This document shows, piece by piece, positions 15,995 to 33,583 of a stretch of 33,628 bases of DNA. The stretch is taken from contig JAGWXX010000011.1 in assembly GCA_018969685.1 (NCBI GenBank), positions 1 through 33,628 on the forward strand, read 5' to 3'. Both the position numbers and the translations under genes were made by a program. The stretch comes from Acidobacteriota bacterium (GTDB lineage: Bacteria; Actinomycetota; Acidimicrobiia; Acidimicrobiales; Ilumatobacteraceae). The notes beneath the pieces were generated by a model. It was not told where the DNA came from and did not search any database. It worked only from the letters and a program-made list of their open reading frames with translations. Within the stretch, counting starts at the first letter, position 1; each line of letters begins with the position of its first letter.

Positions 15995-16345
15995 CTACGA
16001 GGCGGGCGTCGAACTGGACGGTGCACCGCCGGAGGCGGAGCCACCGGCGGACGAGCCGCCACCGGACGAGCCGGAGGATCCCGAGGACGAATCGCCGCCG
16101 GAGGCCGGTGCCGCCGGCGTCGTCGCAGCCGATCCGGACGATGCCGACGAGCCCGAGGGGCGGCTGTCGGTCTTGTAGAAGCCGCCGCCCTTGAACGTGA
16201 CGCCGATGGGGGTGAACACCTTCTTCACCTTCATGACCGCGCCCGTCGAGGGGTGCGCGATCTCGGTGAGCGCCTCGTCGGTGAAGGCCTGCTGCACCTC
16301 GATGGTCTCGCCGGAGTCGATGAACTTGTAGACGTAGGTCGGCAT
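15995..16345 (-). CDS. FmdB-family protein lacking all zinc-binding cysteines
   Basis: A 116-residue protein with a clear FmdB-type N-terminus: MPTYVYKF, QQAFTDEALTE, then KKVFTPIGVTFKGGGFYKTDSR (residues 41-62, usually the most conserved part). Canonical FmdB proteins hold zinc with two CxxC pairs near residues 8-11 and 29-32; this protein has no cysteine at all. From residue 63 it becomes a Gly/Ser/Ala/Pro-rich disordered tail. The fold is thus kept but zinc binding must be lost. It is divergent from galU, 26 bases apart, and upstream of the SAF gene. The function is unknown. Confidence 0.83.
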   Translation of the reverse strand: MPTYVYKFIDSGETIEVQQAFTDEALTEIAHPSTGAVMKVKKVFTPIGVTFKGGGFYKTDSRPSGSSASSGSAATTPAAPASGGDSSSGSSGSSGGGSSAGGSASGGAPSSSTPAS

Positions 16346-16355
16346 GTCGGGGGAA

Positions 16356-16365
16356 ATCCTAGGAT
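16356..16365. promoter_or_regulatory. Palindromic shared -10 for divergent fmdB-like and galU genes
   Basis: ATCCTAGGAT is a perfect 10-bp palindrome. Read rightward, TAGGAT (16360-16365) is six bases before the galU GTG. Read leftward, TAGGAT (16361-16356) is ten bases before the fmdB-like ATG. The two -10 hexamers share the central TA, so polymerase could not open both promoters at once. Confidence 0.55.
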
Positions 16366-16371
16366 GGCGCC

Positions 16372-17247
16372 GTGGCGCTGCGCACTGCCGTGATTCCTGC
16401 GGCGGGCATGGGGACGCGCTTCCTGCCGGCCACCAAGGCGGTGCCGAAGGAGTTGATGCCCATCTTCGACACGCCGGTGCTGCAGCTGGTGATCGACGAG
16501 GCCGTGGCGGCGGGGTGCGAGCACGTGGTGGTCGTCTCCAGCCGGGCGAAGACGGCGATCGACGCCTACCTGGCGCCCTCCGACGACGTGGTGCGGCGGG
16601 TGCGGGACAGCGGCCGCGGGGATCTGGCCGACCGGCTCGCCCGTCTCGGCCGCGACGTCCGGGTGACGGTCGTCTACCAGGACCGTCCGCGCGGGCTCGG
16701 GCACGCGGTGGCGTGCGCGCGGGGTGCCGTGGGCGACGGGCACTTCGCGGTCCTGCTGCCCGACGAGATCATGGGCGACGCGTCGCTGCTTGCCGACCTG
16801 GCGTCGGTGGCCGGGCGCACGGGCGGCACGACCGTGGCGCTGAAGGAGGTGCCGATGGCCGAGACGTCGTCGTATGGCGTCGTCACGCTCGGCGACAGGG
16901 TGGGCGAGCGGGGGGAGCGCCCCGTGACCGGCGTCGTCGAGAAGCCGGCGCCCGGCACCGCGCCGAGCAACCTCGTCATCATCGGCCGCTACGTGCTCGC
17001 ACCGTCGATGTTCGACCTGCTCGACCGCGTGGAGCCCGCGCCCAACGGCGAGATCTACCTCACCGAGGCGCTCCTCGCCGGCGCGCGCGACGGCAATGTG
17101 TTCGGCATGGTCACCGACGTGGACCGGTTCGACACGGGCACGCCCATGGGGTGGCTGCAGGCCGCGATCGAGCTCGTCGCGCGCAGGACCGACGTCGGAC
17201 CGGCGTTCGACGAGTGGCTCGGCGCCCGCGCGCCCAGGGGACGGTAG
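16372..17247 (+). CDS. galU: UTP-glucose-1-phosphate uridylyltransferase
   Basis: A 291-residue GalU, making UDP-glucose from UTP and glucose 1-phosphate for glycans and trehalose. Signature segments are AAGMGTRFLPATKAVPKELMPI (residues 10-31, nucleotide binding), YQDRPRGLGHAV (about 103-114), VLLPDEIM, GVVEKPAPGTAPSNL and the FDTGTPMGWLQA segment. Length and order are standard. The GTG start is leaderless-type. The divergent fmdB/SAF genes and moeA downstream form a typical actinobacterial galU neighbourhood. Here a serine hydrolase and an opposite-strand gene separate galU from moeA. Confidence 0.96.
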   Translation: MALRTAVIPAAGMGTRFLPATKAVPKELMPIFDTPVLQLVIDEAVAAGCEHVVVVSSRAKTAIDAYLAPSDDVVRRVRDSGRGDLADRLARLGRDVRVTVVYQDRPRGLGHAVACARGAVGDGHFAVLLPDEIMGDASLLADLASVAGRTGGTTVALKEVPMAETSSYGVVTLGDRVGERGERPVTGVVEKPAPGTAPSNLVIIGRYVLAPSMFDLLDRVEPAPNGEIYLTEALLAGARDGNVFGMVTDVDRFDTGTPMGWLQAAIELVARRTDVGPAFDEWLGARAPRGR

Positions 17248-33082: not shown

Positions 33083-33583
33083 GTGGCGTTCGTGGCGATT
33101 GTCAATCGGCGGGTCGTAGTGTCGGATCGTGTTCCGTTCCTCAACGGGTTCATCGCGCACTGCATCGGTGTCGGCCTTGCAGTGGCGCTGCAGGAAACGT
33201 CGGCTCCGGTCGCGGTGCAGGTGCTCGGGGCGACGGATCTCTCCGATCCGAGGATGGCGCGGGTGCAGGGCGAGCGCTTTGCCGCCCGCCACATCAACCA
33301 CCTCGAGCCGGTCGTAGGCGTGCTGCAGATCGTCACGCTCACGGGGTGCGGAACGGCACCGGTCGAGGCCGACTTTCTCGGGCGGTGCGGCGCCACGACG
33401 CTGAGCCTCGCGCGCTACGACCTCGACGGTTCGTGGGAAGCTGCGACCATGCACGTCGAGGACGCCCATGGAGCCTTCGAGATGCACCCCGACTGCTCGG
33501 CCCTGGAAGGGCAGTACGAGCGCATCGCCGGGCTGTGCCGCGATGCGGCGGTCGAGATCGCCTCGCGCTTCGGCGGCCGGTGA
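33083..33583 (+). CDS. Hypothetical protein, about 166 residues
   Basis: I do not recognise a family. The protein appears soluble, with a hydrophobic stretch FIAHCIGVGLAVAL (about residues 23-36), then alternating strands (VAVQVLGATDL, VVGVLQIVTLTGCGTA) and a C-terminal helical part. Codon usage over the coding part matches the genome. The start is uncertain: GTG 33083 or 33092 are both in frame, GTG 33119 also; GGAAA precedes the second. It is separated from the kinase gene by 166 bases holding a palindrome and a promoter candidate, so it seems independently regulated. A 7-bp hairpin spans its stop. Confidence 0.55.
   Translation: MAFVAIVNRRVVVSDRVPFLNGFIAHCIGVGLAVALQETSAPVAVQVLGATDLSDPRMARVQGERFAARHINHLEPVVGVLQIVTLTGCGTAPVEADFLGRCGATTLSLARYDLDGSWEAATMHVEDAHGAFEMHPDCSALEGQYERIAGLCRDAAVEIASRFGGR

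Follow-up and report, generated by a model that had tools for sequence, protein, structure and literature searches.

The 26-nt gap between two divergent genes, one fmdB-like and one galU-like, is very probably an intrinsic bidirectional housekeeping promoter that would yield leaderless or nearly leaderless mRNAs, as judged from its sequence and from that of its relatives. In the window, by which we mean the whole 33,628-nucleotide stretch of DNA analyzed here, positions 16343 to 16374 read CAT-GTCGGGGGAA-ATCCTAGGAT-GGCGCC-GTG. The locus comprises the following features.

15995 to 16345, minus strand: fmdB-like gene, 116 amino acids, starting with MPTY and without the family's four typical cysteines (open reading frame and profile matches).
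16346 to 16371, no strand: intergenic region of 26 nt between the starts of the fmdB-like and galU open reading frames.
16347 to 16349, minus strand: predicted fmdB transcription start zone, 7 to 9 nt downstream of the −10 hexamer, with purines at 16348 and 16347.
16356 to 16361, minus strand: TAGGAT (5' to 3' on this strand), putative −10 hexamer of the fmdB-like gene, 10 nt 5' of the ATG.
16356 to 16365, no strand: ATCCTAGGAT, read as two overlapping −10 hexamers with a common central TA (16360-16361), from the sequence and the conserved form ANNNTANNNT.
16360 to 16365, plus strand: TAGGAT, putative −10 hexamer of galU, 6 nt 5' of the GTG, in leaderless geometry.
16372, plus strand: predicted galU transcription start at the G of the GTG, 7 nt downstream of the −10 hexamer.
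16372 to 17247, plus strand: galU-like gene (UTP--glucose-1-phosphate uridylyltransferase), 291 amino acids (open reading frame and profile matches).

An earlier note on this DNA had described a 26-nt gap with the start codons 6 and 10 nt from the palindrome, and TAGGAT reading outward on both strands with an overlap of the central TA. The open reading frame starts (16345 on the minus strand and 16372 on the plus strand) and the window sequence bear out both descriptions, and overlap of −10 elements on opposite strands is one of the features of known bidirectional promoters. Counted from the first T of TANNNT, the galU hexamer (16360) lies 12 bp from its GTG (16372), in agreement with the ∼12 bp typical of leaderless genes, and the minus-strand fmdB hexamer (16361) lies 16 bp from its ATG (16345), compared with the same ∼12 bp. 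The 10 nt between the minus-strand −10 hexamer and the ATG, longer than in a strictly leaderless mRNA, is a point against strict leaderlessness on that side. Sequences with at most one mismatch to ATCCTAGGAT occurred at two places in the window, the exact copy and a one-mismatch copy at 33246, against 0.18 expected from shuffled windows. The 1,955,418-base (1.96-Mb) assembly contains a single exact copy, and the pattern CAT-N10-ANNNTANNNT-N6-RTG also matched once, at the window locus, with no match to the reversed-pattern control. A consensus sigma-70 scan of positions 16000 to 16700 requiring both −35 and −10 hexamers gave no match, and by eye neither flanking gene showed conserved third codon positions indicative of a −35 element.

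We compared the locus in two samples of relatives. The first came from public genome contigs searched with GalU; of the 50 loci found, 48 were retained after exclusion of 2 that start within galU. Many are labeled Ilumatobacteraceae, Acidimicrobium, or Acidimicrobiaceae and some just Actinobacteria, Actinomycetota, or "bacterium"; four labeled Bifidobacterium breve were taken as label errors, and we infer placement in Acidimicrobiia. Exactly 6 nt 5' of galU, 38 of the 48 loci carry ATTCTAGGAT (33 loci), ATTCTATGAT (4 loci), or ATCCTAGGAT (1 locus), and the CAT of the fmdB start lies 10 nt away on the other side in 37 of these, the contig of the 38th (L034) ending before that point. The remaining 10 loci have a different sequence upstream of galU.

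The second sample came from the family, where a galU match at an E value of 1e-40 or better was found in 119 of the 150 genomes searched. The fmdB/galU region was taken from 126 family genomes, and both starts could be placed in 119, a coincidentally equal number (all but G153, G217, G366, G471, G513, G514, and G536), with a gap of at most 45 nt in 68 and a longer gap in 51. Gap starts were set by a nearest-start rule, since the most upstream in-frame start used earlier, with which the 10-mer was found in 41 of 53 distinct short gaps (shuffle mean, 2.23), had shortened some gaps. The form ANNNTANNNT, that is, two TANNNT −10 hexamers with a common central TA, is present in 64 of the 68 short-gap genomes, which within one genus share ancestry and are not independent, and occurs in nine genera (g1, g184, g12, g3, g5, g7, g14, g204, and g205). 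Among the 48 distinct short-gap sequences, 45 contained it, against a shuffle mean of 2.57 (maximum of 10 in 1000 shuffles), and showed no excess in the longer-gap genomes (6 of 49 distinct sequences, against a mean of 4.22). The four short-gap genomes without it (G122, G440, G051, and G238) have two separate TANNNT hexamers, located at N8-10 of fmdB and N6-7 of galU in G122, G051, and G238; the gap sequence of G440 is that of G122. On the fmdB side, the spacing in the 64 genomes is 10 nt in 51, 7 to 9 nt in 6, and 19 to 22 nt in 7, the last being genus g7, which retains a GGAG-containing leader. Counted over distinct overlap sequences, 34 of 45 have TANNNT at N10 of fmdB.

The symmetry of the window's 10-mer is not shared in the same way. 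Among 12 distinct 10-mers, only ATCCTAGGAT is a perfect palindrome, and it occurs in 2 of the 119 family genomes, the window's own (G000) and G414. Those of most relatives (ATTCTAGGAT, AGTCTACGAT, AAGATATCGT, and others) are incompletely palindromic but always contain two outward TANNNT hexamers, and their mirrored positions vary separately. Comparison of the intergenic region in relatives, which the earlier note had suggested as a check, therefore supports its intrinsic bidirectional promoter well, but not the palindrome as a conserved feature. By this comparison the perfect palindrome in the window is incidental, arising from the coincidence that TAGGAT is the hexamer of both genes here.

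If galU alone used the site, the inverse match would be a by-product, and the fmdB promoter would lie inside galU. The galU side does have the tidier leaderless spacing: its TANNNT at N6-8 (or at N12-14, in cases where our script chose a later in-frame start) is kept across relatives with overlapping promoters, separate promoters, and CIRCE-like sites. However, the fmdB-only columns are conserved like the galU-only ones. In a fixed-geometry set from genera g1, g184, and g12 (37 genomes giving 36 distinct sequences, with G469 dropped for its spacing of 9), mean column entropy was 0.24 bit for the fmdB-only columns, 0.00 bit for the shared TA, and 0.26 bit for the galU-only columns, compared with 1.22 bit for the 16 remaining columns of the gap and 1.11 bit for third codon positions. 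Of all 4-column sets that can be drawn from the 20 columns not part of the galU hexamer, only 0.23% were as conserved as the fmdB-only four, in a test that was selected after data inspection and treats columns as interchangeable. The G adjoining the galU hexamer does not vary in this set either, so that conservation is not entirely limited to the hexamers. Since the fmdB-only and galU-only columns are equally conserved, selection seems to act on both hexamers rather than on the symmetry.

Relatives with separated promoters also speak against use by galU alone. Among their 23 distinct sequences, 15 have TANNNT at N6-11 of fmdB; for galU, 14 have it at N6-8 and 5 more at N13-14, where a later in-frame start was chosen. 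The 8 without TANNNT at N6-11 of fmdB belong to g7, g8, and g10, have it at N21-43 or show none, and count against the bidirectional reading. In g2 (7 genomes), one g6 genome, and one g187 genome, fmdB retains its own TANNNT at N8-11, 48 to 110 bases from the separate TANNNT of galU. Because fmdB mostly keeps TANNNT near N10 when the promoters are apart, the minus-strand hexamer looks like an independent promoter. Moreover, in the first 18 galU codons, the third positions at the distance expected for a −35 element are not unusually conserved by eye. Taken with these observations, use of the site by galU alone is improbable.

The gap is also the place of a known type of palindromic site in part of the family. 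The CIRCE consensus is TTAGCACTC-N9-GAGTGCTAA, and 31 of the 119 family genomes have, between fmdB and galU, a CIRCE-like site matching 14 to 18 of the 18 consensus positions; they belong to genera g4, g8, g10, g15, g188, g189, and g190; none of 2380 shuffled gaps scored 14 positions or more. An example at L083, L087, and similar loci is TTAGCAGTC-N9-GAGTGCTAA, and one further CIRCE-like site, outside the count of 31, was seen in genus g16. With such sites in the same gap elsewhere, the perfect 10-bp inverted repeat of the window could be imagined as an operator for a dimeric regulator of both genes, but we rejected this reading, which is very unlikely: symmetry is not kept among the 12 distinct 10-mers (1 fully palindromic, mirrored positions varying separately), and the exact 10-mer, present at a single place in the assembly, is far shorter than CIRCE-like sites. 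Chance occurrence in an AT-containing stretch of a compact gap in a GC-rich genome is scarcely credible, even though a TANNNT match needs just three fixed bases, given the excess over shuffling in the distinct short gaps and the near-constant distances to both starts.

At the proposed bidirectional promoter, where we infer the sigma factor, the start sites, the leaderlessness, and any coupling of expression, ANNNTANNNT would be read in either orientation by RNA polymerase carrying the main sigma factor. The plus-strand TAGGAT would give a leaderless galU mRNA from 16372 or the adjoining base, and the minus-strand TAGGAT would give an fmdB mRNA with a leader of ∼2 to 4 nt, starting near 16347-16349, so that the predicted divergent start sites (16372 and 16347-16349) would be 23 to 25 bp apart. 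Recognition would be expected to depend on the −10 hexamer, with no −35 match in either direction. Since the hexamers share one TA step, the site could be opened by one polymerase at a time. The earlier note had held that two polymerases could not open both promoters together and that expression might thus be mutually exclusive. The steric part stands, in that PMC12825309 describes two polymerases as unable to occupy such a promoter together; the part on expression overreaches, since the same paper reports that, in E. coli, none of the five bidirectional promoters tested had enough basal transcription for competition. Interference is reported there to arise once one direction is substantially activated, which can repress the other (PMC12825309). 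With basal activity too low for competition at those five promoters, exclusivity would be expected of binding and is not implied for expression.

The fmdB-like protein matches Pfam Zn_ribbon_8 at 17.8 bits and TIGR02605 at 17.4 bits, both below the curated cutoff, and contains no cysteine at all, compared with the four within the N-terminal ∼50 residues that mark the FmdB/Ruc zinc ribbon. Within the first 55 residues, the fmdB-like proteins have no cysteine in 118 of the 119 family genomes and one in the remaining genome; 13 matches from the order but outside the family have two to four, several of these matches being shortened by a contig end or a stop. In Mycobacterium tuberculosis Ruc, cysteine-to-serine changes are reported to give chaperone activity without oxidation (PMC7448276), and for this reason the cysteine-free fmdB-like proteins might, by analogy, be constitutively active. 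The galU-like protein matches Pfam NTP_transferase at 96.4 bits, above the cutoff, and TIGR01099 (galU) with an E value of 1.4e-72 and 244.4 bits, below the cutoff of 326.8.

On the window's contig (C36), a CIRCE search allowing at most three mismatches found no site. Two CIRCE-like sites with 0 and 1 mismatch were seen elsewhere in the assembly, at G000:C53:2028-2054 (L231) and G000:C56:19915-19941 (L232), respectively. HrcA was found in 55 of 61 relatives and was not found in the window's own 92%-complete assembly; loss of HrcA as the cause of CIRCE loss is not supported, HrcA being present in 19 of 22 same-genus relatives. The comparison of gaps suggests that heat-shock control has been lost at the window locus. 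A GalU tree covered 44 of the 46 rows selected for it; two rows of g8 dropped out, leaving g8 unrepresented, and G217, with the overlap, and G366, with CIRCE, are unlabeled. The overlap genera occupy three places in it: g1 with g184 and g12; g7; and g3, g5, g14, g204, and g205 mixed with separate-promoter genera. The tree has at least seven changes of gap state, and the number of origins is tentative because backbone forks are open. It is nevertheless plausible from these sequences that heat-shock control has repeatedly given way to a shared −10 region.

The architecture was also sought beyond this locus. Across 395 genomes of the class, CAT-N10-ATNCTANNAT-N6-RTG matched in 7 genomes, with one control match. 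Besides the window and one congener, it occurred at six distinct places, which are unlike divergent gene starts, none opening more than 27 codons on both sides; this fixed pattern is too narrow, and the other matches are probably chance. The symmetric pattern CAY-N6-ANNNTANNNT-N6-RTG matched 101 times outside g1 (38 genomes), against 28 for the reversed pattern, a control that is not dinucleotide matched and an excess to which one-sided leaderless genes may contribute; in g1 (23 genomes) there was no excess (35 against 31). We read 20 symmetric places: 60 codons or more are open on both sides at 13 of them, 100 or more at 9, and 150 or more at 2, compared with 14, 3, and 1, respectively, of 71 other CAY-N22-RTG pairs at the same loci (Fisher P of 2e-4 at 60 codons and 3e-5 at 100). 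At L233 to L252 in relatives, the tighter shared-TA form (22-nt gap) was seen, at several of them between divergent open reading frames. The shared-TA architecture may therefore be recurrent in the order, which stays a lead because the control pattern was not dinucleotide matched.

We propose, tentatively and as a possibility with the odds against it, that pairs of divergent leaderless genes in this actinobacterial order have come, time and again, to share a single TA step, with gaps of only 22 to 27 nt. This would have happened more than once at fmdB/galU, replacing HrcA repression and tying to basal galU expression a chaperone-like gene that was by then without its redox switch. Related genera hold the same two promoters fused and apart and so offer a clean comparative case, in which the fusion, the spacing rule, and the effect on expression are directly testable. 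The locus also suggests a possible way for a heat-shock gene to become free of its repressor.

Our literature search found no start-site map for the group and, on the fmdB/galU gap, nothing relevant among the matches listed. The fmdB homologue ruc (Rv0991c) of M. tuberculosis is reported to be repressed by HrcA (PMC7448276). The fmdB-like gene of the window is homologous to it, and a CIRCE-like site lies 5' of fmdB in the 31 family genomes noted above; unlike ruc as described there, the gap in the window is without a CIRCE-like site, and the four cysteines that bind zinc are absent from the protein.

The promoter itself is of a kind already known in other bacteria. Bidirectional promoters of the Warman type are described as having divergent starts 7 to 25 bp apart on opposite strands (PMC12825309; PMC10268837), most commonly 18 bp apart, with 10 and 23 also common (PMC12825309); the predicted spacing of 23 to 25 bp at our locus thus includes one of these three. 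Here, as in the symmetric −10 promoters of those accounts, one short −10 region would be used both ways by sterically exclusive polymerases. The commonest known form, at 18 bp, has −11A and −7T reciprocally paired (PMC12825309; PMC10268837), whereas here just the TA at −12/−11 is shared, and both genes would begin at or almost at the end of their transcripts, the starts being predicted from sequence. This last property recalls the leaderless genes, notably of Actinobacteria, whose reported signature is a TANNNT with its first T ∼12 bp ahead of the start codon (PMC3160421). TANNNT is likewise given as the preferred housekeeping −10 element in Mycobacterium smegmatis, where a gene counts as leaderless if its transcript starts 0 to 5 nt before the start codon (PMC6448022). 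At our locus TANNNT also stands closely 5' of each start codon; whereas the relevant parts of those two papers treat leaderless genes singly, here two such genes have the TA of their hexamers in common.
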